Source of the DNA: Chromatiaceae bacterium
GTDB lineage: Bacteria; Pseudomonadota; Gammaproteobacteria; Chromatiales; Chromatiaceae
Direction of reading: 5' to 3'
Assembly: GCA_013426805.1 (NCBI GenBank)
Contig: JACDZG010000016.1
Span: 1 to 64,000, forward strand
DNA: 64,000 nucleotides
The notes beneath the pieces were generated by a model. The model did not search any database. It was not told where the DNA came from and was given only the letters and a program-made list of their open reading frames with translations. Each line of letters starts with the position of its first letter. Positions within the stretch are counted from its first letter, which is position 1. Of the stretch, positions 38,663-55,439 are shown in pieces. A program made the position numbers and the translations under genes.

Positions 38663-38996
38663 GGGAGGTCTCCCGGCAGGAAAAGCCGTCTAGTTTAGTC
38701 TGTTCCAGGCGGGTGCGCTTGAGTTCCGCGCGACTGGATCCGCCGCATCGCAGCTCATCCCCGCCTGGCGCCGGATTGTTCGATTGGTCCCGCCTCGGGG
38801 AACCTCGAGTCGGCGCTGCCGCCCATCAGGAGACATGGTAGCAATCCCGACGAACCGAAGGCGTTGACTAACGTCAGGCGGCTGACCCTTGACACGACAG
38901 CCGCCGCCGGAATATGGAGTATTGCTCAATTCTGGTCAGCCTTGTCATATAAAATGACCGGCTTGATTCTCCCAGCCAACCAGGTTCCTCCAGCCC
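38663..38996. other. Divergent glyA/ubiG intergenic region
   Basis: 334 bp with no gene. A TTGACA at about 38889 and an AT-rich TCATATAAAATG at about 38945 could belong to the ubiG promoter; neither pair is well spaced, so this is weak. No riboswitch fold was recognised. Confidence 0.35.
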
Positions 38997-39734
38997 ATGA
39001 CCGAGACGATTCATCACAGCGACCACCACGCGAACGTCGACCCCGGCGAGATCGGCAAGTTCGAGGCACTGGCCTCCCGCTGGTGGGACCCGCAGAGCGA
39101 GTTCAAGACCCTGCACGACATCAACCCGCTGCGGCTGGAGTACCTCGAGCGGACCGGCACCCTGGCGCAGCGCGCGGTGGTGGACGTTGGCTGCGGCGGC
39201 GGACTGCTCTCCGAGGGCATGGCCGCGCGCGGCGCGCAGGTGCTGGGGATCGACATGGGCGCCATGCCCTTGCGGGTGGCTGAATTGCATACCCTGGAGA
39301 CCGGCGTGGCGGTCGACTACCGGCGCATCCCGGTGGAAGCACTGGCGGCGGAACGTCCCGCAAGCTTCGACCTCGTCACCTGCATGGAATTGTTGGAACA
39401 CGTCCCCAACCCGGCCTCCGTGGTCAGCGCCTGCGCGCGCCTGGTGCGTCCCGGCGGTCACGTCGTGTTTTCAACGCTGAACCGCAATCCCAAGTCCTAC
39501 CTGTTCGCCATCCTCGGGGCCGAATACCTCCTCGGCATGTTGCCCAAGGGCACCCATGACTTCGCCCGCTTCGTCCGGCCGGCCGAACTGACCCGATGGA
39601 TACGCGCCGCGGGCTTGCGTGCCACCGATATCACCGGAATGACCTACAACCCATTGACCCGCACCTATCGGCTCACGCCCGATGATGTGGACGTGAATTA
39701 TCTGGTGACCTGTAGGCGTGACGCCGATGACTGA
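38997..39734 (+). CDS. ubiG: Ubiquinone O-methyltransferase UbiG
   Basis: 245 aa class I methyltransferase. Motif I is [16 protein letters not shown], and the UbiG-specific start [20 protein letters not shown] and NPLRLEYL are present, with [19 protein letters not shown] later. It makes both O-methylations in ubiquinone synthesis. 45 bp before the next gene, same strand. Confidence 0.95.
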
Positions 39735-39779
39735 GACCAACCCCGGACGGCGCGGCGCGACGCGCGGAACGCCCCCCTG

Positions 39780-40661
39780 ATGCCGGGCGACTGGGGCTTC
39801 CCCAACCCCGCCACGCCGCCGGGCTCGTCCACCTATTACAGCCTGCGCCTGGCCCCGACCGGACAGCGCGACGGGCTCGCCGCTTTATACGGGTGGCGCC
39901 ATCAGTTGCAGGCGGTGCTGGATCAGGTCACGGATGCCGCGGTCGCCGCGGCGAAACTGCGCTGGTGGCAGGAGGAGTTGGCGCGCAGCATTGCCGGGGC
40001 GGGGAGCCACCCCTTAAGCCGGCAACTGGGCCAGGTCATCGACCAGCGCGGACTGCCGACCGAGCCCTTCCTGGCGATGACCCGCGGGGCCGCGGCCATC
40101 ATCGACCGCCGCCGGCCGCGCGATCCGGACGCCCTGACCGCCGCGGCTGCGCAGGATTTGGGAGCACTTTTCGAACTCCTGACCCGTGCCGCGGGCGACC
40201 CGGGACCGGCGCAGATCGATCGCGCACGCCGACTCGGCGCCTACACCACCCTGGTCTATCAGATCCGCGACTGCGGCCGGCTGCTGCGCCGCGGACGCTA
40301 CGAATTCGTCTCGACGCAGCAACTCGACGCATTTGGACTCAACCCCGCCGACCTGGCGCGGCCGACGCAGCGGCATCACCTGCCGCCGATCCTGTCCGCA
40401 CTGGCGGACCATGCACGCCGGCTGCGCGGCGCGCGTCGGGAGTCCGATGGACTGTCGACGCCGATCCGCATCCGGGTGCGCCTTGCGGACCTGCTGCTGG
40501 ACGAACTCGCGGCCGGCGCGTTCGACCTCGCCGACCAACGGATCGCACTCACCCCGCTACGCAAGCTCTGGCATGCCTGGCGCGAAAGCCGGCAACCGCG
40601 ACACCGCTCACTGAACGCCATTGAGAATCCGCACCCATGGAACAAGCACCCATGCCCCTGA
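39780..40661 (+). CDS. Squalene/phytoene synthase family protein, degenerate active site
   Basis: 293 aa. Fold features of the trans-prenyl head-to-head synthases are visible: YYSLRLAPTGQRDGLAALY, KLRWWQEELARS, and LGAYTTLVYQIRDCGRLLRR. The two DxxxD magnesium motifs of active enzymes are not intact: the second reads DCGRLLRRGRYEF, and the first region lacks paired Asp. This resembles the NDUFAF6-like or non-catalytic branch rather than CrtB. It sits between ubiG and an SDR and overlaps the latter by 25 bp. Confidence 0.7.
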   Translation: MPGDWGFPNPATPPGSSTYYSLRLAPTGQRDGLAALYGWRHQLQAVLDQVTDAAVAAAKLRWWQEELARSIAGAGSHPLSRQLGQVIDQRGLPTEPFLAMTRGAAAIIDRRRPRDPDALTAAAAQDLGALFELLTRAAGDPGPAQIDRARRLGAYTTLVYQIRDCGRLLRRGRYEFVSTQQLDAFGLNPADLARPTQRHHLPPILSALADHARRLRGARRESDGLSTPIRIRVRLADLLLDELAAGAFDLADQRIALTPLRKLWHAWRESRQPRHRSLNAIENPHPWNKHPCP

Positions 40662-41359
40662 TGCAACCCCTGCACGACCGGATGATCCTGGTGACCGGCG
40701 CGGCCGAGGGCGTCGGACGCGCCGTCGCCCTGGCCGCCGCGGCCCAGGGTGCGACCCTGGTCCTGTGCGACCACCCCGATGCCGACCTCGCCGCCGTCTA
40801 TGACCAGATCGAGGCCGCCGGCGGGGCCGCGCCCGCCATCCTGCCGCTGAACCTGGATACGACCACCGAGAAGGGCTGCCGCACCGCGGCCGATTTGGTG
40901 GGCGACTGCTGTGGGCGGCTCGACGCACTGATCCACTGCGCGGCCTTCGCACCCTACCTCGCCCGCATCGACGACTACGACAGCGGCGAGTGGGAGCGCG
41001 TGCTGCGCGTCAACCTCACCGCACCCTTCCTGCTCACCCAGGCCTGCCTGCCATTGTTACGCGCGTCGGCGGACGCGGTGGTGATCTTCACCTCCGACCG
41101 GGTGGGACGCACGGGCCTGGCCTATTGGGGCGCCTTCGCGGCGGCCAAGTTCGGCATCGAGGGCTTAGCGCAGGTGCTGGCGGACGAGACCCGCGACAGC
41201 AGTCCCATCCGCGTCGCCTGCCTCGATCCGGGGATCGTCCGCACGGGCCTGCGCGCCCGCCTTTACCCCGGCGAGGACCCGTTCACCCTTCCCGCACCCG
41301 AGAGCGTTGCCCCGCGCTACCTGGAGCTGCTGACCAGCAGCGTGCTCAGCCGCTCTTGA
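40637..41359 (+). CDS. Short-chain dehydrogenase/reductase (YciK-like)
   Basis: 240 aa. The Rossmann TGxxxGxG is VTGAAEGVGRAV, NNAG is replaced by HCAAFAPY, and the catalytic area reads VIFTSDRVGRTGLAYWGAFAAAKFG split around the Ser, Tyr and Lys (Y is shifted). RVACLDPGIVRTGLR follows. Start could also be the second ATG at 40652. YciK homologues usually lie behind ubiG or gph. Substrate unknown. It is convergent with the CDGSH gene, overlapping 14 bp. Confidence 0.8.
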   Translation: MEQAPMPLMQPLHDRMILVTGAAEGVGRAVALAAAAQGATLVLCDHPDADLAAVYDQIEAAGGAAPAILPLNLDTTTEKGCRTAADLVGDCCGRLDALIHCAAFAPYLARIDDYDSGEWERVLRVNLTAPFLLTQACLPLLRASADAVVIFTSDRVGRTGLAYWGAFAAAKFGIEGLAQVLADETRDSSPIRVACLDPGIVRTGLRARLYPGEDPFTLPAPESVAPRYLELLTSSVLSRS

Positions 41360-42026
41360 AGCCGACCGTTTGATGGCTGCCGTCACAAAAGGGCTTGTTT
41401 TTCGAAGCCCCGCACCGACACAGGGCAGCCTCCGTCCCCTCCCAGGCGGCGCGTCCGCTGGCGGCACGGATGCTCAGGTTGCCTTTGACCAGCAGCGGCC
41501 CGTCCACCAGCGGCTTGATCGTCAGCGGGCCGCCCAAGGCCGTGAGCGGTGTCCCCCGCTCCCCGACTGACCCGAAGTCCTCGAACCCAGCCTTGAGGTG
41601 GCTGTTGTCGCAGAAGGGCTTGTTGGTGGATAGACCGCAACGGCAGAGGGCGGCGCGGAACCGGACTCCCGGCATATCCGCGGGCGCCCCCGCAATCTCC
41701 AGCTCGCCGCGGGCGTACAACGGACCGTTGTAGGCGACCGTCACCGTGTTCTCCCCCGGGGCGACCTCGGGCCGGTCGTCGTGGTCGTGGTAGGACAGGG
41801 CCCCACTGGGACAACGCTCGATGATCTCGCGCACCTCCGCCTTACTGCACTGGTCCGGAACGCACCAGGGCTCACGGCCGCCGACAAACAAGGTACCGGC
41901 CGCGTTGCCGCACTCCCCGATATGGATGCACAGACGTTCGTCCCAGTGAACATCGATCGCGGCACCTGGATACTCAACTAAAGTGCTCCGGTTCTCGTCT
42001 TGCTGATTCTCGTCTTGCTCGCTCAT
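41346..42026 (-). CDS. CDGSH iron-sulfur protein with Fer4_19 domain
   Basis: 226 aa with three metal domains. The N-terminal divergent monocluster ferredoxin (IHIGECGNAAGTLF, VPDQCSKAEVREIIERCPSG) precedes two CDGSH-type motifs: LCRCGLSTNKPFCDNSH (residues about 132-148) and LCRCGASKNKPFCDGSH (about 203-219). Each CDGSH binds a [2Fe-2S] with three Cys and one His. Likely a redox or cluster-transfer protein of the cytoplasm; partner unknown. Confidence 0.9.
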   Translation of the reverse strand: MSEQDENQQDENRSTLVEYPGAAIDVHWDERLCIHIGECGNAAGTLFVGGREPWCVPDQCSKAEVREIIERCPSGALSYHDHDDRPEVAPGENTVTVAYNGPLYARGELEIAGAPADMPGVRFRAALCRCGLSTNKPFCDNSHLKAGFEDFGSVGERGTPLTALGGPLTIKPLVDGPLLVKGNLSIRAASGRAAWEGTEAALCRCGASKNKPFCDGSHQTVGFKSG

Positions 42027-42149
42027 CTGGCTGACCTCTGTGCTGACTTTGACTCACGTACCGGCAGAACGGTAGACTCCGCGCGCATCAGTTTCAAGCG
42101 CCAGGAGCATTCTTGAGGGTCGGCAGTGCCAAACCTCGCCTAAGACGCC

Positions 42150-43211
42150 ATGCAAGCAACCGCAAACCTCAACATCGCGGCCTTCGACACGATGCCCGCA
42201 CCGGAGGAGATCCTGCGCCGCGTTCCCATCACGGATCGGGCCACGACCACCGTGCTGTCTGGTCGGACCACACTGGAGGCCATTCTGGATCGACGCGATC
42301 CGCGGCGGTTCGTGGTGATCGGCCCCTGCTCGATGCATGACCCGGTCGCCGGCCTGGACTATGCGCACCGATTACGTGGGCTCGCCGATGAAGTCGCCGA
42401 CGTGCTGGTGCTGGTCATGCGTGTCTATTTCGAGAAACCCCGCACCACCACCGGCTGGAAGGGCTTCATCAATGATCCGTTCCTGAATGATACCTTTCAC
42501 ATCGCGGACGGCATGCAGATGGCGCGGGATTTTTTACTGGCCGTCAATGAACTGGGACTGCCCGCCGCAACCGAGGCGCTCGACCCGATCGCACCGCAGT
42601 ATCTGGGTGATCTCATCGCCTGGACGGCGATCGGTGCACGGACTGCTGAATCGCAGACGCATCGCGAAATGTCCTCGGGACTATCGACGCCGGTCGGTTT
42701 CAAGAACGGCACCGACGGCAGCATCGACACGGCCATCAATGCCATTCTCTCGGCGGCGCAGCCCCACAGCTTTCTGGGTATCAACGCCCTGGGTCAATCC
42801 TGTGTCGTGCGAACCCGCGGTAACCGTTACGGCCATCTGGTCCTGCGGGGTGGCGACAGTCGTCCGAACTACGACACCGTCAGCGTTGCCATGGCGGAGC
42901 AGGCGTTGCTCAAAGCCCAACTGCCCGCCAACCTCGTGATCGATTGTTCTCACGCGAACAGCCATAAGCGGCCTGAACTGCAGCCGCTGGTCATGCAGGA
43001 TGTCATCAATCAGATTCGCGCCGGCAATCACTCGATCCTGGGCATGATGGTCGAAAGCTTCATCGAAGCCGGCAGTCAGCCGATCCCCGCCGATCCGGCC
43101 CGGCTGAAGTATGGCTGCTCGGTCACCGATGCCTGTATCTCCTGGCCAACCACCGAGCACATGATCCGCGAAGGCGCCGCCGCATTGCGCACCCATGACC
43201 GCGCGCGATGA
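42150..43211 (+). CDS. aroG: 3-deoxy-7-phosphoheptulonate synthase
   Basis: 353 aa class I-alpha DAHP synthase. Motifs: RRFVVIGPCSMHDPVAGLDY, VLVMRVYFEKPRTTTGWKG, GARTAESQTHREMSSGLSTP, VGFKNGTDGSIDTAINA and VIDCSHANSHKRPELQP. It joins phosphoenolpyruvate and erythrose 4-phosphate as entry to the shikimate pathway. Which aromatic amino acid inhibits it cannot be read safely. Stand-alone gene. Confidence 0.95.
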   Translation: MQATANLNIAAFDTMPAPEEILRRVPITDRATTTVLSGRTTLEAILDRRDPRRFVVIGPCSMHDPVAGLDYAHRLRGLADEVADVLVLVMRVYFEKPRTTTGWKGFINDPFLNDTFHIADGMQMARDFLLAVNELGLPAATEALDPIAPQYLGDLIAWTAIGARTAESQTHREMSSGLSTPVGFKNGTDGSIDTAINAILSAAQPHSFLGINALGQSCVVRTRGNRYGHLVLRGGDSRPNYDTVSVAMAEQALLKAQLPANLVIDCSHANSHKRPELQPLVMQDVINQIRAGNHSILGMMVESFIEAGSQPIPADPARLKYGCSVTDACISWPTTEHMIREGAAALRTHDRAR

Positions 43212-43259
43212 CAACAGGCCGTCGCCGCCGGTCGTCGTGCAGGTGACGGCCAAACCCCG

Positions 43260-44504
43260 GTGACTCAAGCCACGGCTCCCTGCTGCGACGCCAACCCTGA
43301 TCCGCCGACGTTCCGGGGGTGCTGCATCGGCTTGAGCGTCGCGACCTGTCTGCTGTTCTCCGGCGCGACGACGGCAGCCGACAGCTTCTGGAGCACCATT
43401 CAACTGCATGGGTTCGCCGCCCAGAGCGTCATCAAGACGAGTGACAACCGGTTTTTTGGCGACAGCCCCGACACCTCATTCGCCTCGACCGAGATCGGCG
43501 TCAACGCATCGGTTCGACTCGATCCGAAAGTTCTGGTCGCCGGGCAAGTGCTGGCCCGACGTGCCGGCGACATGTACGACGGCACCCCATCGCTCGACTA
43601 TGCACTGACCGACATCGCACTGATCGCCTCCCCCGAGCGCATCCTCGGGATTCGCCTTGGACGCGTCAAGAACCCGCTCGGCCTCTACAACGAGACGCGC
43701 GATGTCCCATTCACACGCCCCGGCATCTTTCTCCCCCAGGTGATCTATTACGACAAGGTGCGCAATATCGTGCTCTCCTCGGACGGCGCCGCCGTCTATG
43801 GATCTCTGTATAACGATCTGGGTGAGTTTTCGGTGACGCTCGTCGGCGGCTGGCCAGTGCTCGATGACAACGTCCAGTGGACTTATCTCGGGGGGGACTT
43901 TCCCGGCACACTCAGACCAAATGGCTCGGTATGGACCGGCAGCCTCTGGTACGCGACGGTCACCGAGCAGTTGCGGTTCGGATTGAGCGGCGCACTCGCG
44001 TCCCTGCGCTACGCCCCCCACCAGAATGACATCCTCGGCCCGGGACAGACCGACATTGTTTACGGAATCGCTTCCTTGCAATACAGCGCGCGGCGTTTCA
44101 CGCTTTCCACTGAATACGGGCTGGAGCCGGTGAGATGGCGGCGCTATGGGCCATTGCTGCCGCGACGGAAAGTGACCTCCGAGGGCTATTACTTACAAGG
44201 CACCTATCGAATCCGTTCGAATCTTGAATTCATGGCGTGCTACGAAGAAGGTGTCGCCGACCGCGACGATCGTGACGGCAGTGACTTCGCCGGAGTGACT
44301 GGCGGACTGGTTCCTGCACACGCCATGTTTTCAAAGATCGTTACCGTCGGCCTGCGGTGGGATCCCACCCCCAACCTCATGCTGCGCGCCCAATACCAAT
44401 GGAACCAGGGCACCCTTGTGCTTTCCCAGCTGGAGAATCCGGATTTCCCGCGGCAGCGTGAATACTGGAATCTGCTGGCGCTGCAAGTCGCGTTTCGCTT
44501 CTGA
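43260..44504 (+). CDS. Outer-membrane beta-barrel porin-like protein
   Basis: 414 aa from a GTG at 43260. A signal peptide is visible (IGLSVATCLLFSGATTAADS, cleavage after about residue 40), then many alternating aromatic strands (WSTIQLHGFAAQSV, ALTDIALIASPERILGIRLG, YYLQGTYRIRSNLEFMACYE) and a C-terminal LLALQVAFRF ending in Phe, the BamA signature. I cannot name the solute. Next to a small periplasmic phosphate-binding-like protein, as often seen for DcaP- or OprP-like barrels. Confidence 0.75.
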   Translation: MTQATAPCCDANPDPPTFRGCCIGLSVATCLLFSGATTAADSFWSTIQLHGFAAQSVIKTSDNRFFGDSPDTSFASTEIGVNASVRLDPKVLVAGQVLARRAGDMYDGTPSLDYALTDIALIASPERILGIRLGRVKNPLGLYNETRDVPFTRPGIFLPQVIYYDKVRNIVLSSDGAAVYGSLYNDLGEFSVTLVGGWPVLDDNVQWTYLGGDFPGTLRPNGSVWTGSLWYATVTEQLRFGLSGALASLRYAPHQNDILGPGQTDIVYGIASLQYSARRFTLSTEYGLEPVRWRRYGPLLPRRKVTSEGYYLQGTYRIRSNLEFMACYEEGVADRDDRDGSDFAGVTGGLVPAHAMFSKIVTVGLRWDPTPNLMLRAQYQWNQGTLVLSQLENPDFPRQREYWNLLALQVAFRF

Positions 44505-44516
44505 GGTCGCACCGGG

Positions 44517-44975
44517 GTGACTCATCGAATCGCCAGCAACCCGATCCATTGGCCGCACTGGGTCGCCGCCCTTGCCATCATCGCCATGGTGATGGCGTTC
44601 AACCCCAACTGGGCGCCGGCACAGGAAATCATTGCGAATTCCGGTTTGCCCAAGACCGCGATCACCCGCAACGAGGCCCGACTGTTCTTCTCGATGAAAC
44701 TCGGCATTTGGCCGAACGGGGCGCCGGTTCAGGTCTTCGTCCTGCCTGACGATCACCCGCTGCATCGTGAGTTCTGCACCCAAGTGCTCGGTCTGTACCC
44801 TTACCAACTTCGTCGTGTCTGGGATCGCCAGGTCTTCTCCGGCACCGGTCAATCACCCGTCACGATTTCGAGCGAAGCGGAACTGATCGAACGCACCGCG
44901 GCTTCGCCGGGCGCGGTGAGCTACGCGGCGACGCCTCCGGACAACCCGCGTGTCCGCGTCCTGACCGTTAAGTAA
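44517..44975 (+). CDS. Small periplasmic PstS-like protein
   Basis: 152 aa from a GTG at 44517. A signal peptide or anchor (WVAALAIIAMVMAFNPNWAP) is followed by ITRNEARLFFSMKLGIWPNG, HREFCTQVLGLYPYQLRRVW and SPGAVSYAATPP, a pattern of short phosphate ABC transporter substrate-binding-like proteins. It is half the length of PstS, so it may be a one-lobe or sensor-type binding protein. It starts 12 bp after the porin. Confidence 0.7.
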   Translation: MTHRIASNPIHWPHWVAALAIIAMVMAFNPNWAPAQEIIANSGLPKTAITRNEARLFFSMKLGIWPNGAPVQVFVLPDDHPLHREFCTQVLGLYPYQLRRVWDRQVFSGTGQSPVTISSEAELIERTAASPGAVSYAATPPDNPRVRVLTVK

Positions 44976-44989
44976 CTACGGCGGTTGGA

Positions 44990-45679
44990 TCAAACCGGTT
45001 CCGGGAGTTTGCGCAAGACAACATTATACGCATTGCCGCAGACCTCTTCCGCGACCATCACAAGGCCGGACGTAATCAACTTATCGCGGATGTCGGCGTG
45101 ATGATAAGGCGTATAGAGGATGCCTTTGCGCATTCCCCACTGGTTGATTCGCCCGGCGATCCGGCGCAGTAACCACGGACCGCGCGGATACAGGAGGACA
45201 TTCGCCGCCAGAGTGCCACCGGGTTTGAGAACCCGAACGACCTCCGTCAGTGCGCCATCGAGGTCAGGAAAACAGTGCATGGCATTGGCGATGTTCGCAC
45301 TATCGAAACTGGCGTCCGCGAAGGCAAGCGACGACACATCCGCATGCAGCAGTGTCATGCCGCGTCGGTCGGCAAAGCGTTGCCGCGCGCCGACAAGCAT
45401 CGGCTTCGCGTAGTCAAAGCCAACGATCCGCACCTGCGGCAGTCCCTTCCAGCGCCTCCAGCGCAGGATGATATCGAGCAAGCTGCCGCTGCCGATGGCG
45501 ACCTCAAGATGATGTGCGCCGATATTGCGCCCGAACAGACGCACTTGCCGGCCGAGCGTGCTGCGATACGCAAAGGTCAGAATGAAGAGTCCGCGGATGT
45601 CGTACCACCAGGGCGGCGACGAATAGGCTCGCGCGATGTTATCGCGGGATGGATCTGACTTGGACGCTGACCGGACCAT
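44990..45679 (-). CDS. Class I SAM-dependent methyltransferase
   Basis: 229 aa from the ATG at 45679. Motif I is LEVAIGSGSLLDIILR, followed by VRIVGFDYAKPMLVGARQRF, ADVSSLAFADASFDSANIAN and VVRVLKPGGTLAANVLLY, the UbiE/methyltransf_11 pattern. It ends a three-gene run behind the ThiF-like and acyltransferase genes with a 19-bp gap. Substrate unknown; by position it may methylate a product of its neighbours. Confidence 0.85.
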   Translation of the reverse strand: MVRSASKSDPSRDNIARAYSSPPWWYDIRGLFILTFAYRSTLGRQVRLFGRNIGAHHLEVAIGSGSLLDIILRWRRWKGLPQVRIVGFDYAKPMLVGARQRFADRRGMTLLHADVSSLAFADASFDSANIANAMHCFPDLDGALTEVVRVLKPGGTLAANVLLYPRGPWLLRRIAGRINQWGMRKGILYTPYHHADIRDKLITSGLVMVAEEVCGNAYNVVLRKLPEPV

Positions 45680-45698
45680 CCTGTCGTATGACCTGTGA

Positions 45699-46559
45699 TT
45701 AACGCAGCAGACGCAGTGCTGACGCGAGGACGAGACGCTGCAACGGATTGGCATTGCCGCCAGGGCGCCAGGTCTTCGCATAGCGGTTGCGATAGGGGTC
45801 GAATTGTTGCCCCCAAGGCGCGGCCAGTACCTTGCCCCGGCACAGCAGAATCTTGAGCACCTGAGTCGCCGCCATGCCCGCGCAGATCTCACAGGCCATG
45901 GGCGTCGAGGGCCCCCGCTGACGCGCGAAATCGACCGCTTGCGGGTAGATCAGGTAACGCAGTTGCAACATCGCCGGCGAAAGGCCGACAAGAAATCGAA
46001 CCAATTGCTCGTGCTCAGTCCGGCCTTGCAGGCGAAAATACGCCTCAAAAGTCATCTTGCCAGGTAGAAAAACCAGCATCGCGGCGCCCATGCCGAGCGG
46101 CGCCGCGGTCACCGAGGGGATGGCGCGTTCTGCACATGCGGCGAAGACCGCTCGCCGCGCCGCGACGGCGAAATAGTCCAACCCGTCGAGATAGAGATCG
46201 GCATCATCCAGGAACGCGCTCACGTTACCCCCATCGATCTCGGTATCGAAGGTCCGCAGATCGAGCTGGGGATTGATGTCCCGCGCCATTCGGGCGAGCA
46301 CCTCGACCTTACGCTGACCGCAGGTGCTCACGTAGGCGCCGACCTGACGATTGAGATTGGCCGGTTCAAAGACATCGGGATCAGCGATCGTGAAGCGCCC
46401 GACACCAAGGCGTGTCAGGGTCAATAGATGACTGCCGCCAACGCCGCCCAGTCCGGCAAGCGCGACCCGTTTTGTTCCCAGCACCCGCTGCTCAGCGGGC
46501 GTCAACCAGCCGATGGTGCGCGAGAACGCCTCGGTCGAGTGGTCAGTGGTCATCGACAT
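45699..46559 (-). CDS. ThiF/MoeB/HesA-type adenylyltransferase
   Basis: 286 aa E1-like fold. Nucleotide loop VALAGLGGVGGSHLLTLTRL (residues about 31-50), acidic and Arg finger region ADPDVFEPANLNRQVGAY, and DDADLYLDGLDYFAVAARRA. A CEIC pair at about residue 224 may bind zinc. It lacks a partner sulfur-carrier gene next to it, so it probably adenylates a small acid rather than ThiS or MoaD. Between the acyltransferase and a methyltransferase, all on one strand. Confidence 0.85.
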   Translation of the reverse strand: MSMTTDHSTEAFSRTIGWLTPAEQRVLGTKRVALAGLGGVGGSHLLTLTRLGVGRFTIADPDVFEPANLNRQVGAYVSTCGQRKVEVLARMARDINPQLDLRTFDTEIDGGNVSAFLDDADLYLDGLDYFAVAARRAVFAACAERAIPSVTAAPLGMGAAMLVFLPGKMTFEAYFRLQGRTEHEQLVRFLVGLSPAMLQLRYLIYPQAVDFARQRGPSTPMACEICAGMAATQVLKILLCRGKVLAAPWGQQFDPYRNRYAKTWRPGGNANPLQRLVLASALRLLR

Positions 46560-46606
46560 GCGGGCAACGCTATACCAGTATCAGTTGAGGCGATTGCGGC
46601 TCGATC

Positions 46607-47419
46607 CTATACCGTGTCGCCGCCCGAGCGCCGCCCGAAACGGCTGTGCCGCAGAGGCAGATCCGCAATTGCTGAATACTGCAGTGAGTCTTCTATACTT
46701 TCAGCGATCCAATTGTAGAGTTGATGGAACTCCCGATCCATCGCCATCAAGAATTCGTCGGTGTCGATATAATAGACGGCCCGTATTCCATGATAGTCCA
46801 CATCGCGACCGACACGATTAAAACAGATGCCGAAGCGCCTCAGCAAGCGCGGCAAAAATGGTTCCATGAGTGCGAACACATAGGTTCGGCCGAGCTGCTT
46901 CGCCATCACCGCCGCCCCAAACGTCAGACCGACTGAGATCAGCGGAAAAGTACGCCGTTCCGAATCCGAAAGATCCCATGACCGAGCTTCGCCGAAACGG
47001 GTCAGCGTCTCGCCGGAGCGGCGACGGAAGACCCCGTCGACGGCAAAACGCGAAGCCTCACACATGCGTTCGCGGGGTGCGCTGAAAACACTGTGCTGAA
47101 CCTGATCGACGCTCCCGCCACAGAATTTTTCGTAAGGCATCGAATGGCAGGTGACACTGACGGACGCCGGACAGATCCGCACGCAGCCGGCAGCTAAACC
47201 TGATCCTTTATGGGTAACCAGACAGTGGGTCGCGACTTCATCAAACAGATCCACTTCCATTCCGGTCGGAAAGTACTCGCGAGGCTCATACCCGAACTCT
47301 TCACAATAGACACGATAGCGTATTCGAAAAGTCTCCTCAAGATCCGTCGTCGTCATTGCCAGGCCAATCGTGAAATAGCGCTGGAGGTCTTCAAGTGGAT
47401 ACGGGGATTCCTTGATCAT
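46607..47419 (-). CDS. PEP-CTERM/exosortase-associated acyltransferase
   Basis: 270 aa. N-terminal GNAT-like part similar to autoinducer synthases: TDLEETFRIRYRVYCEEFGY and DEVATHCLVTHKGSGLAAGC; the ASRFAVDGVFRRR segment is a family hallmark, followed by LISVGLTFGAAVMAKQLGRT and NRVGRDVDYHGIRAVYYID. Such enzymes take acyl groups from acyl-ACP and are typically found near exosortase loci, but no exosortase or PEP-CTERM protein lies in this window. First gene of the acyltransferase-ThiF-methyltransferase run. Confidence 0.85.
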   Translation of the reverse strand: MIKESPYPLEDLQRYFTIGLAMTTTDLEETFRIRYRVYCEEFGYEPREYFPTGMEVDLFDEVATHCLVTHKGSGLAAGCVRICPASVSVTCHSMPYEKFCGGSVDQVQHSVFSAPRERMCEASRFAVDGVFRRRSGETLTRFGEARSWDLSDSERRTFPLISVGLTFGAAVMAKQLGRTYVFALMEPFLPRLLRRFGICFNRVGRDVDYHGIRAVYYIDTDEFLMAMDREFHQLYNWIAESIEDSLQYSAIADLPLRHSRFGRRSGGDTV

Positions 47420-47463
47420 CTACCAGAACCCTGATGACGTGCCGATGCCTGCGGTGGGCCGAC

Positions 47464-47940
47464 TCAGGGTTGCCTGACCACGCCAAACAGCTTGCAGCCG
47501 AGCGAGGATAGATTCACCATTCCGCGGTTTGTGCTAGCCATATTATCCAGTTCCAACGCAAGCAGATATTTGAAAAACAGGTAGCCCTGATCCGGATGAT
47601 CATCCAGGTAGATCATTAACATGGCGCCATCGATCTCCAAAACTGCGCCGTCGGTCAAGGCGCGAACCGTCGCGATGCTCTCGTAGCCGCCAATCAGCGC
47701 CGCCTCGCCGAAGACATCCCCGACCGACAGTTCCGCAATCGTGATCTCCAGCGTCGACTGATCTGGAAGCTCCACCCGCCCCAGCACCGCCAGTCGACCG
47801 TGATCGACGATGAACAACGACTGCCCCAGACGCCCCTCGGTCGTCAGGCACTCGCCGACCGTGAACCGGCGCCGAACCCAGGCAGAACCTTCACAAAGCC
47901 GCGGACTCCGCAGCAGCGCTTGCACGAATTCAAGAAACAT
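47464..47940 (-). CDS. Cyclic-nucleotide-binding domain protein without HTH
   Basis: 158 aa from the ATG at 47940 (a GGAG lies 12 bases upstream; an ATG at 47973 is less likely). The CAP-ED core is clear: FTVGECLTTEGRLGQSLFIV, ELSVGDVFGEAALIGGYESI (phosphate-binding cassette) and ATVRALTDGAVLEID. No DNA-binding domain follows, only DNMASTNRGMVNLSS. It may be a stand-alone sensor subunit for the acyltransferase run 45 bp downstream. Confidence 0.85.
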   Translation of the reverse strand: MFLEFVQALLRSPRLCEGSAWVRRRFTVGECLTTEGRLGQSLFIVDHGRLAVLGRVELPDQSTLEITIAELSVGDVFGEAALIGGYESIATVRALTDGAVLEIDGAMLMIYLDDHPDQGYLFFKYLLALELDNMASTNRGMVNLSSLGCKLFGVVRQP

Positions 47941-48162
47941 GATTTCGCTCGACTCCAGACCTCCCGTTCCCATCGGCAGCGGTTGTCGCCCGCGGCGCGG
48001 ACACCGTTCGGCTGCCGACCGCCGGCGGGACCGCGCCCGGTGCCGTTCCGCGGCCCGGAGGCCGCGGAGGTAGACCGGCGAGCCCGCCCGCTCGTTCAGC
48101 TGAGCATAAACCGATCATGCCGCGCGAATCAATGGTCGCTGCGGCGACCATCGCCGCTATCC

Positions 48163-49167
48163 TCAGCGCAGGCTGCCGAACTCCGTGAGGCCGAGCACGT
48201 GCAGAATGCCGTTGGCGAAGTTCGCCCCGAGACGTTCCGCAAAGCTTTCGAACAGATCCTTCTTTTTCGTATAGTCGACCAAGGTCTCAGCACCGATCAG
48301 TTCGCGCGCGACGAAACTGGAATTCCCCAGGCCGTCCGCCAACCCCAATGTCAACGCCTGATCCCCGCTCCAGAACAGCCCGCTGAAGATCTCCTCCCCC
48401 CCTTTTAAGCGATCACCGCGTCCGGTCTTGACGGCGGCGATAAATTGCCGGTGCAGATCGTCCAACACCGCCTGGATGAACGCCCGCTGCGACTCGGGGA
48501 GTGGGGAGAAGGGATCGAGGATACCCTTGTTGGCCCCGGCAGTGAGCAGGCGCCGCTCGACCCCAAAATCCTTCATGGCATCGACGAAACCGAAACCGTC
48601 GATGCGAACGCCAATCGAACCGACCAGGCTCGCCTTGTCGACGTAGATCTGATCCGCCGCCGCGGCGATGTAATAGCCACCGGAGGCACACAGATCCACG
48701 GCCACGGCGTAGACCGGCATCTCCTTCTCGTTGTCTTTCTTGTACTTTTCCTTGAGTCGGTGAATTTCGTCGGCGATGTACCCGGACTGTACCGGACTGC
48801 CGCCGGGACTGTTGATGCGGATGATGACGCCCTTGACATGGTCCGCCTCGAAGGCTTCGCGTAACGCCGTGATCACGCGGTCGGCACTTGCCTCAGTCTC
48901 GGCGGAGATGACGCCCTTGACCTGGATCAGGGCCGTATGCTCTTCACCGGTCTTCAGACCCTCCCAGGCATTACGCGCCAAGGCGGCCGCTAGAATCCCA
49001 ATCAAATAGAGCAAGATCAGCAGCTTGAAGATATAGCCCCAACGTCTGCCGCGGCGCTGGTCGCGCAGGTGCTCCACGGCCATCCGATTGATCAAAGACC
49101 GCTCCCAGTCCGGATCACCGGGCGCCGGCATCGGCGCGTCGTCGCGTTTCCAGAATCGCCAATTCAT
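48163..49167 (-). CDS. sppA: Signal peptide peptidase SppA, S49 family
   Basis: 334 aa from the ATG at 49167 with GAGAGGA seven bases upstream. One membrane helix (YIFKLLILLYLIGILAAALA, residues about 47-66) anchors a periplasmic S49 domain: GVIIRINSPGGSPVQSGYIA, catalytic Ser in DLCASGGYYIAAAA, SLVGSIGVRI and the candidate Lys in GANKGILDPFSP. It degrades leftover signal peptides. The short single-domain form is like that of Bacillus rather than the long E. coli protein. Confidence 0.92.
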   Translation of the reverse strand: MNWRFWKRDDAPMPAPGDPDWERSLINRMAVEHLRDQRRGRRWGYIFKLLILLYLIGILAAALARNAWEGLKTGEEHTALIQVKGVISAETEASADRVITALREAFEADHVKGVIIRINSPGGSPVQSGYIADEIHRLKEKYKKDNEKEMPVYAVAVDLCASGGYYIAAAADQIYVDKASLVGSIGVRIDGFGFVDAMKDFGVERRLLTAGANKGILDPFSPLPESQRAFIQAVLDDLHRQFIAAVKTGRGDRLKGGEEIFSGLFWSGDQALTLGLADGLGNSSFVARELIGAETLVDYTKKKDLFESFAERLGANFANGILHVLGLTEFGSLR

Positions 49168-49280
49168 CGCTGGTCCTCTCATATGATGCGCGGGAAATGA
49201 TGCGAAAGGGTTACGGCGAACGCCGTGCCGACTTCCGGGTCGATGACGTTTGCCGGACGTAGAACATACAGGAACATACA

Positions 49281-49305
49281 AGGGGCGGGTTTGAAACCCG
49301 CCCCT
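49281..49305. repeat. 12-bp-arm palindrome (REP-like)
   Basis: AGGGGCGGGTTT, one base, then AAACCCGCCCCT, lying between the HAD phosphatase and sppA. A half copy (AGGGGCGGGTTT) lies directly behind mscK at 63219. No T-run follows, so it is more REP-like than a terminator. Confidence 0.75.
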
Positions 49306-49327
49306 ACACCAAGGCCATGTTTGGCTA

Positions 49328-50011
49328 TCAGATGCGAAGGCTTTGGTCCGTAGCGTGCGAACACGTCGCTAACCAGTCCGGAATGGCGGCGAGCGACTGC
49401 ATACACGCCAGCGGCCCGCACGCCAGCAAGCGCTCCGGCGTATGGACACCGTAGCAGACGGCCAAGGCACCAACCCGGGCATTGGCGGCCATGTGCAGGT
49501 CGTACTCGGTGTCGCCGATCATCAGGGTCTGCGCCGGCGCCACGTCCAACGCGTCCATCAGTTCCAGGAGCATGCGTGGATCCGGCTTGGAGGCGGTTTC
49601 ATCAGCACAGCGGGTGGCCTGGAAAAAGCCGGCAAGCCCGGTCTGCGCCAACGACAGGTCGAGTCCGCGCCGGCTTTTGCCGGTCGCGACGGCAAGCAAA
49701 TAGCCTTGCGCACGCAACCGTTCGAGGGTCTCGCGCGCACCCGCAAACAAGGCCGTGGGAGTCTGGTCGGAGAACAGGAAGCGCTGCCGGTAATGCCCGG
49801 CAACCAGCCGCCGCTGTGCGGCGTCGGCCGCCGGCCACAACCGCGCCATGGCCTCATCCAACCCCAGACCGATGATGTCCGCCGCCGCCGCACGGCTGGG
49901 CGGCGGCTGGCCCGCATCCACGAAGGCCGCTAACAGACAGTTGACGATCCGCGCCTGCGAGTCCATCAAGGTGCCGTCCCAATCAAAACAGAGTAATGCG
50001 AAACTCATCAA
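49328..50011 (-). CDS. HAD-superfamily phosphatase (Gph-like)
   Basis: 227 aa. HAD motifs: LLCFDWDGTLMDSQARIV (motif I), VATGKSRRGLD (motif II Thr), KPDPRMLLELMD (motif III Lys) and MIGDTEYDLHMAANA (motif IV). The cap is of the phosphoglycolate phosphatase type; the substrate could also be another small phosphate. It overlaps rluC by 4 bp, the usual arrangement in gammaproteobacteria. Confidence 0.88.
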   Translation of the reverse strand: MMSFALLCFDWDGTLMDSQARIVNCLLAAFVDAGQPPPSRAAAADIIGLGLDEAMARLWPAADAAQRRLVAGHYRQRFLFSDQTPTALFAGARETLERLRAQGYLLAVATGKSRRGLDLSLAQTGLAGFFQATRCADETASKPDPRMLLELMDALDVAPAQTLMIGDTEYDLHMAANARVGALAVCYGVHTPERLLACGPLACMQSLAAIPDWLATCSHATDQSLRI

Positions 50012-51054
50012 CCGGTCACCTCGACAGTCGCCGCGGCGGCTAGACGCACGAGCACTTGCTCCAACTCCGCCGGGAGGGGGGCGTCCACCCGGAGCTGCTG
50101 CTCCATGTAGGACGGGTGAAAACTCAAGGTCCCGGCATGCAGAAAGAGTCGATCGAGCCCCACGGCCTTGAGGCGCCGATTGGCCTCGAAGTCGCCGTAC
50201 TTCGGATCACCCGCCAGGGGCGTCCCCAGATGGGCCGCGTGGACACGGATCTGATGGGTACGCCCGGTGAGCAGGCGCGCCTCGACCAGGGTCACCACCC
50301 CGAGCCCCGTGCCTTCACTGAGCGGACCTTGGCAGACAAAGCGGCGTAACCGCTTGAATAAAGTTCGGGCCGGCTTGCCGACGACCCGGTCGACTTGCAC
50401 CACCCGCTCCCCGCCCGACTGCCCGTGCTTGGCCAAGGGCACATCGACGGTGAGCGTCTGGCTCGGCAGCTCCCCCAAGATCAGGGCAAGGTAGCGCTTG
50501 TCCACGTGACCGTCGCGCAACAACTGGTGCAGGTCACGTAAGGTGCTGCGGCGCTTGCTGACCAGCAGGCAGCCCGAGGTGTCGCGATCCAGCCGGTGGA
50601 CCAACTCCAACTCCGCGCCCGGACGCAGTTGGCGCAGGTTCTCGATCAGGCCGTAGCTCAAGCCGCTGCCGCCGTGCACGGCGAGCCCGGCCGGCTTATC
50701 GATGACCAGCAACCGCTCATCTTCGAACAGAACCGCCGCGGCCAGGCGGGCCAATGAGCGCTCCGGCGCCCGCGCCGGCTGTGTCGGCGCGGACATCCGC
50801 AGCGGCGGAAGACGCACGAGGTCACCGGCCTGCAACCGGTAGTCGGCCTTGACCCGGCCCTTGTTGACACGCACCTCACCACGCCGCAAGACCCGGTAGA
50901 GGTGACTGCGCGGGACACCCTTCAGGTGGCGGACCAGGAAGTTATCGATGCGCTGCCCGACCGACTCCGCGTCGACCCGGACCAAGGCGACGGCCGGGCC
51001 GCGATCATCCGCGGTCGCGAGGGATACGGCGGGGGTTGGATGGGTCGGAGTCAA
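50008..51054 (-). CDS. rluC: 23S rRNA pseudouridine synthase RluC
   Basis: 348 aa. N-terminal S4 domain (VGQRIDNFLVRHLKGVPRSH, VRVNKGRVKADYRLQAGDLV) and RluA-type catalytic domain with HRLDRDTSGCLLV (active Asp), RTHQIRVHAAHLGTPLAGD and RLFLHAGTLSF. It makes pseudouridines 955, 2504 and 2580 of 23S rRNA in E. coli. It is divergent from rne, as in many relatives. Confidence 0.94.
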   Translation of the reverse strand: MTPTHPTPAVSLATADDRGPAVALVRVDAESVGQRIDNFLVRHLKGVPRSHLYRVLRRGEVRVNKGRVKADYRLQAGDLVRLPPLRMSAPTQPARAPERSLARLAAAVLFEDERLLVIDKPAGLAVHGGSGLSYGLIENLRQLRPGAELELVHRLDRDTSGCLLVSKRRSTLRDLHQLLRDGHVDKRYLALILGELPSQTLTVDVPLAKHGQSGGERVVQVDRVVGKPARTLFKRLRRFVCQGPLSEGTGLGVVTLVEARLLTGRTHQIRVHAAHLGTPLAGDPKYGDFEANRRLKAVGLDRLFLHAGTLSFHPSYMEQQLRVDAPLPAELEQVLVRLAAAATVEVTG

Positions 51055-51698
51055 CGGGGTTGCTTCCGGCCTTGCGGCTCAATTGCTGCCATAGATATTC
51101 ACTGTTAGTATTCGGGCCTTGCGCGGGCGAGCGAAAGACTCAAGAACTTGCCGCAAGCGACGCGTGCATTCAGGAGGCTCGACGGCCTTGGGAGATGCCA
51201 CACGATGGTTGGTTCCGACTGGCAGCTAAAGTGACTTGGCTGCCGTCTGGACCGAGGCCGGGCCAGCCCGGCGAGACACTGAAATTGGTCGGCGAAGCGC
51301 TTGGGCGAGCTGCGGCACGTCCCAGGGGTTCGGTCAGGTCGGGGGGATTCTACACCCGGACCGCCGTGCCCGCCCGCGGCCCCTGACCGGTGACCCCAAA
51401 CCGGGGCGCCGAGCAGGCGGCCCAACCCTCGCCACTGAACGAATCCGGGACGCCGCCGCCACTGGCGCGTCCCAAGAGACGCGGGCGACTTCAACAACTT
51501 GCCCGTAACCCTAAGAAACGGATGTGCATGTCCGTCCCGGTCCGGCCCGCGCTCAGTGCGCCCGCCGGGACACCGAGCCGCGATGGCGGTGCCGCCCCAC
51601 CTGCGGCGGCACCCACGCGGTACGTCCGGCAGCGGGCCAAGTCCGCGCCGCGGACGGTGTTGACGACGGACCATGCGCCCTGTGCGAGAAGGAACAAC
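51055..51698 (+). promoter_or_regulatory. rluC-rne intergenic region and probable long rne leader
   Basis: 644 bp with no supported gene; a frame open from 51390 in phase with rne is GC-rich and not protein-like. A possible promoter is TTGCTG (51083), 17 bp, TAGTAT (51106), which would give an untranslated leader near 580 bases. In E. coli a long rne leader mediates autoregulation by RNase E. A GAAGGA lies before the ATG at 51699. Confidence 0.45.
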
Positions 51699-54600
51699 AT
51701 GAAAAGAATGCTGATCAACGCGACTCAGCCGGAAGAGTTGCGCGTAGCGACGGTCGACGGCCAGGTCCTCTACAACCTCGATATCGAATCGCCTGGCCGC
51801 GAGCAGAAAAAAGCGAATATTTACAAGGGCACCATCACCCGCGTCGAACCCAGCCTGGAGGCCGCCTTCGTCGACTACGGCGCGGAACGTCACGGCTTTC
51901 TGCCCCTGAAGGAAATCTCGCGGATCTACTTCGAGGCGGACACCGCCAAGCCCGGCAGCCGCATCAACATCAAAGAGGTCCTCAAAGAAGGGCGCGAGGT
52001 GGTGGTGCAGATCGACAAGGAAGAGCGCGGCAACAAGGGCGCCGCGCTCACCACCTTCGTCTCGCTCGCCGGCCGCTACCTGGTGCTCATGCCCAATAAC
52101 CCGCGGGCCGGCGGGGTCTCCCGCCGGATCGAGGGCCAGGACCGCAGTGAACTGCGCGATGTCATGAGTCAGCTCCAGATCCCCGATGACATGGGGCTGA
52201 TCGTACGCACCGCGGGGGTGGGCAAGAACACCGAGGAACTGCAGTGGGACCTGGATTACCTGCTCCAACTCTGGCGGGCGATCGAAACCTCCGCCGCGGG
52301 GCGCAAGGCGCCCTTCCTGATCTACCAGGAGAGCGACGTCATCATCCGCTCGATCCGCGACTACCTGCGGGTGGACATCGGCGAGATCGTGATCGACGAC
52401 CGGGCGGTCTACGAACGGGCCGAAGCCTTCATGCGCCAGGTGATGCCCGGCAACCTGAAGAAACTGCGGATTTACCAGGACGAGGTCCCGCTCTTCACCC
52501 GCTATCAGATCGAGAGCCAGATCGAAACCGCGTTCCAGCGCGAGGTGCGCCTGCCGTCCGGCGGTTCCATCGTCTTCGACCACGGCGAGGCCCTGACCTC
52601 CGTCGATATCAACTCCTCGCGCGCCACCAAGGGCGCTGACATCGAGGAGACGGCGCTCAATACCAACCTGGAGGCCGCGGACGAAATCGCCCGGCAATTG
52701 CGCCTGCGCGACCTGGGCGGACTCTTCGTCATCGATTTCATCGACATGACCCCGCCGAAGAACCAGCGTGCGGTGGAAGATCGGCTACGCGATGCCCTCA
52801 AGCACGACCGCGCCCGTGTCCAGGTAGCGCGCATTTCGCGTTTCGGGCTGCTGGAGATGTCACGTCAACGCCTGCGCCCATCGCTTGGAGACTCCACCAC
52901 CAGCGAGTGTCCGCGCTGCCATGGGCAGGGCAAGATCCGCGGGGTCGAGTCGCTCGCCCTCTCCATCCTGCGTATCATCGAAGAAGAGGCGATGAAGGAC
53001 AGCACCGAGCGCATCATCGCCCACCTGCCGGTCAGCGTCGCCACCTTCCTGCTCAACGAGAAGCGGCGGGCGATCCTGGAGCTGGAAGCGCGCCAAGAGG
53101 TCCAGGTCTTGCTCCTGCCCAACGCGCAGATCGAGACCCCGGACTACCAGATCGAGCGGGTCCGCACCCAGGATTTGGCCAAACAGCCGGATGATCGTCC
53201 CAGCTTCGAGTTGGTCGCGCCCGCCCAGACGGTCGCCAGCCCCTACGCGCGGCATAGCGAACCGGTGCGCGGCGAGGAGCCGGCGGTCAAGCAGGTCACC
53301 CCCGCCTGCCCCATGCCCACGCGCGAGCCCCCGCCGGACGTGGACGAGCGGCCCTATTCGCCCCGCGGCCCCGAGCGCGTCGCCGAGCGGCCGGCCGAAC
53401 GGCACCCGGATTTCCTGACCGGCCCGGAGTCGGAACGCCCGCCCCAAGAAAACCTGCTCAAACGCATCTGGACCGGGCTGTTCGCACCGCGCGGCGTGGA
53501 ACCCGCCGAACCCCCCTATGAACGGGACCCGTCAGCGGATCAGCAAGGCCCGCGAGCCGACCGGCCACATCAGGCCGGCCAGCGGCGGCCGGACGCGGGA
53601 CCGCGCCCACGCGGGGAAGACCCGCGACGCGACCCCCGCGACAACCGGCGTGCGCCGGGGGCGGTGACCCCAGGTCGCGGCGAGGCGGAGCGCCAACGCA
53701 CCAGCGGTCGCAACCCCGACCGCGCGAGCGATCGACCGGGTGATCGCCCCACTGACCGACCGTCGGAGCGGCCGAGCGAGCGGAGTACGGCTCCGAATGG
53801 CAACCGGGATACCCAACGGACCCAGCCGCGTCCGGACGGTCATCGCTCAGATACCGGACGTTCCGATACTGGGCGTACCGAGCCGATGCATGCGGAGATC
53901 GGGCGTGCGGACAACGCGCGCCCCGAGTCAGCAGACGTGCAGCCGAGAGAACGCCGTGACGGCGACCCGCGCAGCCGTCGCGGGGGTCGCGGTCGAGGTC
54001 GACGCGACGAACCGCGGTCCGCCGTCGATGGTGCCCAGGCGGGCGGCTCCCCGGGCGGCCAACGTGAGCCGCGCCGGGATCTTCCGGAACCGACTCAGGA
54101 AGACCAGGGACTACAGCCCCAGGCGCTCGCGCCGACCGAGCGGGCTGAGTATCGACCAACCCCGATCGATCGTCCGGAACCGCACCCCCTGCCGCGCGCC
54201 GTACCGCACGTAGCGTCCATCGCCGAGCAGACCAGGACGGCGGAACCACGCGACGGGCAGCCGCGTCCGGACGCTCCGGCGCCGATGATGCCCACTGCGA
54301 CGGCAGTCGAACCGATCCAACCGCCAATCGCGACGCACGAAACGCACCAGACGCCGGCATGGCAGCCCAATCAGGCGGTCAGTTCCGAGATCAGCCCGCC
54401 ACGCGATGTCATCGAGCGGCCGCCGGAATTGGAGTCCAGCCACCCGCGCTGGCCTGCGGCCGCGGCCGAAATCGTGCCCGAGCGCAGCGATTGGGATCAC
54501 TCTCCGGCGGCCCCGGCGGTCCCGGCAAGTGACACGACAACAGCCGAGACACCGCTGGCGGCGTTCGAGCGGTCCACCGACCGGGTGTCCGGATCATCGA

Positions 54601-55430
54601 CCTGGTGGCCGACGGATCGCGCACCGACCGCGGATCCGTTCGTTGCACCGACGGTTGACGTCGCGACCCAGGCTGAGCCTTCACGCGACCTTGACGTCGT
54701 AAACCCGGGCACCGCGCAACACGCACCGGTTGCATCAAGCTCGAGTCCGGCGCTGACGATCACGGGCGAGCCACGGGTCCCGCAGGAGCGCCAAACACGC
54801 GACTGGGATCGTCAGCGACCGGTGGACGCATCACCGGAGGCGGTCGGACAGCCGACGCCGAGAATGTCCGGCGGCGCGGCGCCGGGCGACGTCGAGCCGG
54901 AGGCGTGGGTTGGGTATGACGAGGATGACGAAGAAGAGACGGACGATGCCGGCGGCGCCGACTTGGTCCAGACCGAGCCGTCCCCGACAGAACCGCCGCG
55001 GACGTCCCGGCGGCGGCGCGGCGGCAGTCGCAATCGGCGGCGGCCCAGCGCCAACGGTGAACGCGCGGCGTCAACAGACGAATCCGCGCCTGACACCCAT
55101 GCGGAAACGCGCGTGGAATCCGGCTTGGAGTTCAGCAGGGAAGCTGGTGCGGTCGAAAGCGGCGGGGCTGATTGGCCCGCGCAACCGGAGCCGGGTGAGC
55201 CAGCGCCGATGCGGCCAGCCGGGCGGCCGCGCAGCGACAGTGACTGGGTCGCCCCAGCGGCACCGGTCGAGTCAGTCGCCGCTTGGGTGGCGCCCCCCGT
55301 TCCGGCACCGGAGCCACCGCCCTTCGCCCCAGTCGCGCCCCCGATGAACGTCGGCCGCGACCAAGACGCGGGCACCGAACCGCCGGCGGGGCCGCGGACG
55401 CACGAATTCAAGGACGACACACTCGCTTGA
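51699..55430 (+). CDS. rne: Ribonuclease E
   Basis: 1243 aa. Catalytic half: [18 protein letters not shown]1 domain [20 protein letters not shown], DNase-I-like site [17 protein letters not shown] (Mg Asp) with LFVIDFIDM, and the Zn-link [14 protein letters not shown] (residues about 402-415). The C-terminal 700 residues are disordered, rich in R, P, D, E and Q, with an [17 protein letters not shown] arginine tract near the end that could bind RNA. This is the degradosome scaffold half. Start chosen by family. dacB follows after 9 bp. Confidence 0.96.
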
Positions 55431-55439
55431 GGGACTGAC

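Follow-up and report, generated by a model that had tools for sequence, protein, structure and literature searches.

A four-gene run in a Chromatiaceae genome that may encode a methylating variant of the acyl-oxazolone pathway with no desaturase

The window analysed here, a stretch of 64,000 nucleotides from a purple sulfur bacterium of the Chromatiaceae, contains a run of genes in which a stand-alone cNMP-binding-fold protein is followed by an acyltransferase, a ThiF-type adenylating enzyme and a methyltransferase (MT), and this raises the question of what such a set of enzymes would make. We favour, with modest confidence, the reading that the four genes form an operon whose product is a modified N-acyl amino acid, made by a variant of the acyl-oxazolone pathway that includes a methylation step and has no desaturase.

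The run described by the first-pass annotation, in one direction with small gaps and with the cNMP-binding protein at its head, is real. All four genes are intact open reading frames on the minus strand, separated by 44, 47 and 19 nt, with the 47 nt lying between the acyltransferase and ThiF genes. The reading frame at the head of the run (47464..47973, 169 aa) has an in-frame ATG at 47940 as a possible start, which matches the end point of that annotation. At the other end, the MT gene (44990..45679, 229 aa) has its ATG at 45679; an alternative longer frame of 300 aa, extending to 45892, overlaps the ThiF gene, and the shorter start is favoured by the homologues at two other loci (L009 and L159), where the frame from the first start codon encodes just 224 and 222 aa. 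One promoter-like and two terminator-like sites were found around the run, not above the level in shuffled sequence, and searches for tRNA and Rfam families gave no match within the window. The grouping is considered to be beyond chance because the same genes are found together again in other genomes.

The acyltransferase (46607..47419, 270 aa) had been described as of the PEP-CTERM type, and the profile search bears this out, with 213.5 bits against TIGR03694 for a curated cut-off of 111.95. Its AlphaFold model (pLDDT 85.8) has a LuxI/FeeM-like GNAT fold and superimposes on RpaI (Z 18.3, 193 residues, 3.0 Å) and FeeM (Z 16.1, 177 residues, 3.1 Å), a comparison by which FeeM-type and LuxI-type synthases are inseparable. 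A match to PF00765 (Autoind_synth) also lies above its cut-off (35.2 bits, cut-off 24); an assignment as acyl-homoserine lactone synthase was set aside, as the TIGR03694 score is far higher and the LuxI-type NCBIfam models fall below cut-off. From family and fold the protein is thus a predicted N-acyl amino acid synthase (NAS), which would N-acylate an amino acid, probably an aromatic one, with the fatty acyl group of an acyl-CoA or acyl-ACP donor. It belongs to the same family as the NAS of PEP-CTERM/exosortase systems, reportedly treated by Craig in 2011, and the present genome does have an exosortase A; it differs in lying away from the exosortase locus and in having ThiF and MT as its operon partners.

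The ThiF-type enzyme (45699..46559, 286 aa) matches NF006077 with 410.8 bits (cut-off 266) and PF00899, together with the ThiF part of PRK14851 at 283.4 bits, under the cut-off of that fusion model. Residues Arg-71, Lys-84 and Asp-128 are invariant across 13 relatives and align at a constant offset with Arg-73, Lys-86 and Asp-130 of MoeB, which we take to be the adenylation residues of that protein and hence of this one. By profile and neighbourhood the closest group is the cyclase group. The ThiF of Mycobacterium simulans (L031) also matches NF006077, and it is on this sequence, rather than on those of TyzB, OxzB or TrzS, that the link to the ThiFs of known loci rests. The family assignment and the conserved residues point to a predicted OxzB/TyzB-type cyclase, which would activate the carboxylate with ATP so that the amide oxygen closes the ring to give a saturated acyl-oxazolone. 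ThiF-type enzymes adenylate varied carboxylates, the solved relatives include MccB, PaaA and TcdA, and the MT gene adjoins that of this predicted carboxylate-activating enzyme. Nothing in the run looks like a gene for a carrier or for a second nucleophile, and a crude scan of positions 36000–56000 for short reading frames ending in GG gave one unlikely candidate (37353–37670), in line with the earlier description of the enzyme as being without a carrier protein.

In the acyl-oxazolone pathway (oxz/tyz/trz), an amino acid is acylated by NAS, the product is cyclised by ThiF with ATP, and a nitroreductase-type oxidase (FDO) then desaturates the ring; the steps given for TyzA/TyzB/TyzC and TrzA/TrzS are N-acylation, ATP-dependent cyclisation and O2-dependent desaturation, and the saturated cyclic intermediate arises under O2 limitation or on mutation of the FDO part (PMC10404671, PMC12856293). 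The present run resembles tyzABC/trzAS of mycobacteria and rhodococci and oxzAB of Pseudoalteromonas rubra in combining NAS with a ThiF-type cyclase of the same family, whereas it differs in having no FDO, either in the run or at full length in the genome, in the added MT and cNMP-fold protein, and in its PEP-CTERM/exosortase setting. The same combination recurs across the family. In a census of 69 of the 71 ThiF matches (E up to 2.1e-45; the window's own locus and a fragment, G132:C7, excluded), NAS was found within 8.2 kb of ThiF at 44 of the fetched loci and FDO at 27, with relatives of this ThiF thus occurring next to FDO or fused with it, and next to NAS. The matches of NAS and ThiF above curated cut-offs, the NAS fold, the invariant adenylation residues and these neighbourhoods all support the oxazolone-variant reading.

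The MT matches PF08241 with 61.7 bits and TIGR01934 (UbiE/MenG) with 54.1 bits, below the cut-off of 158, so that the methyltransferase of the first-pass annotation can be described as a UbiE-like, class I SAM-dependent enzyme. It is rare. Among the matches listed it lies no more than 1.3 kb from ThiF in five of the six genomes matched by the MT query, and it adjoins ThiF at L009 too; one of the genome surveys scored at most 13 first-look candidates per genome, and the MT counts may thus be low. The orthologues adjoining ThiF are 58–88% identical, and a relative in G845 (∼40% identical) has no ThiF in its stretch, G845 and G851 having been examined over ∼20 kb each. In three of the four lineages (L009, L159 and L168) the gene points toward ThiF rather than running in the same direction. 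This orientation and the ThiF-less relative in G845 count against the oxazolone-variant reading. Together with the recurrence of NAS near ThiF, the pairing of MT with ThiF provides the co-occurrence in other genomes on which the proposal of a functional trio had been made to depend. An AlphaFold model built from five sequences reached a mean pLDDT of 42.5 and was set aside. Position and repeated association suggest as the MT substrate either the N-acyl amino acid itself or the ring derived from it, with the methyl group perhaps going to an oxygen of the carboxylate or ring, to C4 or to a phenol.

The last of these options leads to a rival reading, which we regard as unlikely, that MT places its methyl group on the aromatic side chain, at a ring carbon or the phenol, as has been suggested for the stieleriacines, and that ThiF does not release an oxazolone, the product being a saturated methylated N-acyl tyrosine. 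PMC12479983 describes stieleriacine loci (Stieleria neptunia and S. maiorica) in which NAS, ThiF and a methyltransferase cluster as in the present run, with a UbiE-like MT adjoining the NAS, ThiF and FDO genes in S. neptunia, a likeness of MTs by description rather than by sequence. The compounds are methylated acyl (dehydro)tyrosines and not oxazolones, and the producers of stieleriacine, kyonggic acid and thalassotalic acid have ThiF genes with no acyl-oxazolone observed, so that a pathway with ThiF may have another end point than an oxazolone (PMC12479983). However, the same text judges the UbiE-like enzyme of S. neptunia the less likely methyltransferase for the O-methylated products, and the stieleriacine loci keep the nitroreductase, i.e. 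FDO, that the present run lacks (PMC12479983). The dedicated pairing of MT with ThiF also argues against the side-chain reading, as it suggests that the MT substrate is the ThiF product.

No FDO (nitroreductase superfamily) lies beside ThiF or fused with it in the run, and no full-length FDO was found in the five MT genomes searched whole (G000, which is the window's own, G145, G148, G264 and that of L009), with all candidates scored in the first four. It is highly improbable that the pathway is the ordinary desaturated one, with the double bond coming from some other oxidase, unrelated or only distantly related, whose gene lies elsewhere: partial nitroreductase matches do exist in G145 (37.8 bits over 82 positions) and on contig C291 of the own genome (25 bits over 47 positions), but the latter lies among unrelated reading frames and neither is a full-length FDO. 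That the genes are accidental neighbours and ThiF acts on a protein or cofactor is the least probable of the rival readings, for although small carrier proteins are the usual substrate of ThiF superfamily members, the gene pairs recur in many genomes and the crude scan of positions 36000–56000 gave no likely carrier candidate.

It is suggestive that MT is found where FDO is missing, although the exclusion is not statistically strong. FDO was found in at least 28 of 210 family genomes, all 28 with ThiF, a lower bound as at most nine first-look candidates per genome were scored; it was not reported in 39 of the 67 ThiF-bearing genomes, an upper figure for the same reason. Its absence beside MT is therefore unremarkable, amounting for four lineages to ∼0.58^4, near 0.1. 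Three loci of other Chromatiaceae (L080, L081 and L121) have cNMP, NAS and ThiF genes in identical order with FDO where the present run has MT, and two relatives of the window's own genus (G150 and G146) have cNMP, NAS, ThiF and FDO without the MT. The ThiFs of the latter two fall on other branches than that of the window in a tree of 75 loci (101 at the start, less six duplicates or fragments and 20 near-copies from two genera; L168 absent), and the difference thus need not be a simple in-place swap of MT and FDO. Methylobacter likewise has MT and no full FDO. As it is an aerobe, this counts against lack of O2 as the shared reason for the missing FDO. The MT-ThiF pairing, the FDO-less MT genomes and the S. 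neptunia locus are counted for the oxazolone-variant reading, as is an association of ThiF with exosortase.

ThiF tracks the PEP-CTERM/exosortase system, with exosortase in 63 of the 67 ThiF-bearing family genomes as against 73 of the remaining 143. The first-pass annotation was right that no exosortase is near: at E ≤ 0.001 the search of its own genome reported a single match, on contig C163, and the window belongs to C90. This is an XrtA locus, with a TIGR03109 exosortase A (336 bits) and neighbours matching TIGR03015, TIGR03006, TIGR03019 and TIGR03087. The exosortase system elsewhere in the genome had not been foreseen, nor had the predicted identity of ThiF with the cyclase type of a described pathway, or the desaturase that usually or often accompanies it. 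No paper linking the acyl-oxazolone pathway with PEP-CTERM/exosortase was found in a search that lay mostly outside the subscription literature, the mentions in PMC8776678 being unrelated to each other.

The cNMP-fold protein matches PF00027 with 46.7 bits, no other domain being found, and its gene is directly upstream of NAS at eight loci in four genera, the window included. In the column of the phosphate-binding-cassette Arg, all five sequences of the window's genus have Ser and all six others Arg; the three Chromatiaceae loci with FDO retain the Arg outside genus g1, unlike the window's genus. The label of a cyclic nucleotide "sensor" is thus unsupported, and in what is the weakest step of the proposed pathway the protein may adjust its activity by contacting other proteins, or through a ligand bound in a mode other than the canonical cAMP one. 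As to the wider proposal of an N-acyl amino acid signal, acyl transfer, carboxylate adenylation and methylation fit the families found, and NAS with ThiF corresponds to the known pathway as set out in PMC10404671 and PMC12856293, whereas a role as a signal finds no support.

A bolder extension, distinctly doubtful in our estimate, is an oxygen-independent branch in which the saturated acyl-oxazolone would interconvert with its aromatic enol and be trapped by MT as an acyl 5-methoxyoxazole or an alpha-methyl amino acid lipid, tuned by the cNMP-fold protein and acting on the PEP-CTERM/exopolysaccharide matrix. Nothing was found on 5-methoxyoxazole biosynthesis by a methyltransferase in a literature search mostly outside subscription journals. 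If true, this branch would bring a new lipid class and unite the oxazolone and exosortase fields.

On the oxazolone-variant reading, the run would be a natural version of the pathway without desaturase and with methyltransferase, which may stop at the saturated intermediate or at its methylated form, and which would serve cells that have a PEP-CTERM/exosortase exopolysaccharide system. The role of acyl-oxazolones and the companionship of NAS with exosortase are two questions that these data tie together at the level of the genome. In the methanotroph Methylomonas LW13, normal polysaccharide bands failed to form once a NAS gene associated with PEP-CTERM had been disrupted (PMC11072679), and a role in the matrix for products of this kind may thus be put to the test.

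The run of cNMP-binding, acyltransferase, ThiF and methyltransferase genes proposed by the first-pass annotation is present in one direction with small gaps, its four minus-strand ORFs all being intact and separated by 44, 47 and 19 nt. They encode a cNMP-fold protein (47464-47973), an acyltransferase of the N-acyl amino acid synthase type (NAS; 46607-47419; TIGR03694, 213.5 bits against a cut-off of 111.95), a ThiF-type enzyme (45699-46559; NF006077, 410.8 bits against a cut-off of 266) and a UbiE-like methyltransferase (MT; 44990-45679), the first and last with Pfam matches above cut-off. The acyltransferase model (pLDDT 85.8) has the LuxI/FeeM fold (Z of 18.3 to RpaI and 16.1 to FeeM), and the ThiF retains the residues that align with MoeB R73, K86 and D130, all three unchanged across 13 relatives. 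Neither NF006077 nor the fusion models PRK14851 and PRK14852 are named in NCBIfam. In relatives of the window ThiF, a nitroreductase-superfamily protein adjoins the enzyme or is fused to it, with matches to Rv1355c (TrzS) and the PRK14851 model that are both below cut-off.

NAS, ThiF and a nitroreductase-type desaturase/oxidase (FDO) make up the acyl-oxazolone pathway, for which PMC10404671 and PMC12856293 describe N-acylation, ATP-dependent cyclisation and O2-dependent desaturation as demonstrated with TyzA/B/C and TrzA/S; with TrzS, O2 limitation or mutation of the FDO part leads to the saturated ring (PMC12856293). The window run has no FDO gene, MT standing directly after ThiF in its stead, and as FDO is one of the defining features of an oxazolone cluster, we do not class the run as a member. 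The run most likely works like the first two steps of the oxazolone pathway: judging from families and conserved residues, the acyltransferase would form an N-acyl amino acid that ThiF would activate and cyclise. An alignment of 11 FDOs, searched against the own genome and the other MT genomes, gave a sole match of 25 bits over 47 positions in the former, 37.8 bits over 82 positions in G145, 25 bits over 26 positions in the genome of Methylobacter marinus (locus L009) and zero matches in G148 and G264.

The first-pass annotation made its proposal depend on co-occurrence in other genomes, which the neighbourhood survey bears out. Window-type ThiF occurs in 67 of 210 family genomes (best match per genome E up to 1.3e-55; following matches begin at 1e-23), and within 8.2 kb of it, in 69 fetched loci excluding the window itself, we found NAS 44 times, FDO 27, cNMP 10, a second MT type 4 and window-type MT 2. 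FDO (E <= 1e-30) was reported in at least 28 of the 210 genomes, all 28 of which also bear ThiF. NAS-ThiF loci that lack FDO are common, most of all in genus g48, and since 39 of the 67 ThiF genomes have no reported FDO, its absence beside MT is alone unremarkable (four lineages by chance, about 0.1). Many g48 genomes (L092-L113) have NAS-ThiF only, with no FDO or MT within 8 kb, possibly a two-enzyme form whose end product is the saturated ring or the acyl amino acid.

MT itself is rare (2/369 class, at least 3/210 family and 3/398 phylum-sample genomes, each count including the own genome), and yet it lies within 1.3 kb of ThiF in five of the six distinct genomes found with the MT query: the own genome, G145, G148, G264 (L159) and G851 (L168). 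In the sixth, G845, a 40% identical relative (L169 9584-10192) has no ThiF within about 20 kb; it adjoins ExbB/TonB-like genes, judged by eye. The M. marinus locus, located via ThiF, also carries MT. The two genes are convergent in L009, L159 and L168, so that a shared direction is found only in Lamprocystis-type loci. The repeated pairing suggests that MT would methylate the NAS/ThiF product. UbiE-type enzymes transfer methyl groups to nucleophilic carbons, and in a saturated oxazolone the C4-H is acidic and the enol form aromatic; on these grounds MT might trap the enol or C4, giving an acyl 5-methoxyoxazole or an alpha-methyl amino acid lipid, an outcome that we consider rather unlikely. 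A second MT type, ~30% identical to MT, lies near ThiF in FDO-bearing loci (L024 4521-5399, L027 9177-10106, L072, L073, L074, L137).

An attractive explanation for the loss of FDO, that an anaerobic phototroph lacks the O2 needed by the desaturase, is not general, since Methylobacter is aerobic and the purple sulfur relatives at L027 and L121 keep FDO. A 75-row ThiF tree puts the MT loci at three points within an FDO-rich clade (three changes by parsimony, two of them forced by well-supported branches). L009 stands next to L019, an FDO-bearing Methylobacter locus (support 94/63), and the window ThiF groups with that of G019, whose locus contains FDO and cNMP genes (94/74). The FDO-bearing members of the window's genus, G150 and G146, have ThiFs from other branches, and thus an in-place exchange of FDO for MT within the genus finds no support in the tree. 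The G146 locus (L138) reads cNMP-NAS-FDO with ThiF 1.3 kb further; the same 16-kb stretch also contains additional partial matches to ThiF and NAS.

The cNMP gene is directly upstream of NAS in eight loci from four genera, window included, and is thus part of the locus, where we infer a regulatory role. At the position of the phosphate-binding cassette Arg (alignment column 100) the window protein has Ser; among 11 relatives, Ser stands there in 5/5 sequences of its genus, against Arg in 6/6 from other genera. This replacement makes canonical cAMP binding in the window's genus doubtful.

An exosortase match was found in 63/67 ThiF genomes versus 73/143 other family genomes (Fisher p 1.3e-10, uncorrected for kinship), the exceptions among the ThiF genomes being G024, G031, G045 (70% complete) and G129. 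PEP-CTERM or PrsT-like TPR proteins adjoin ThiF in many loci, mostly judged by eye; two PEP-CTERM proteins scored by profile gave 26.6 bits (above cut-off) and 19.7 (just below). Contig C163 of the own genome carries exosortase A with XrtA-type ATPase, deacetylase, FemAB and glycosyltransferase genes. A tie of NAS genes to PEP-CTERM systems is reportedly already known from Craig in 2011, and the name of the TIGR03694 family itself makes it; in mainly open-access text, we found none for the ThiF/oxazolone pathway and PEP-CTERM/exosortase.

RND/MMPL-type exporter genes recur near ThiF, in L159 (8383-10665; TIGR00921 154.7 bits, below cut-off) and, judged by eye, in L082, L086, L089, L122, L123 and L014, reminiscent of mmpL9, which adjoins tyz in PMC10404671. 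In Mycobacterium simulans, a gene resembling those of cytochromes P450 (L031 4564-5916; 217 bits to its best NCBIfam model, below cut-off) is directly upstream of ThiF-FDO, and Thorarchaeota (L033-L036, L038, L039) have ThiF relatives of 27-32% identity. On contig C211 of the own genome (L139 9649-13365), repeated GLSPRARGN / PIPASAGEP-type ORF translations adjoin an OlsB-like acyltransferase and resemble a repeat array read as protein, possibly a CRISPR.

The window gene set is real and recurrent, and represents a known pathway in a new form, not a new kind.
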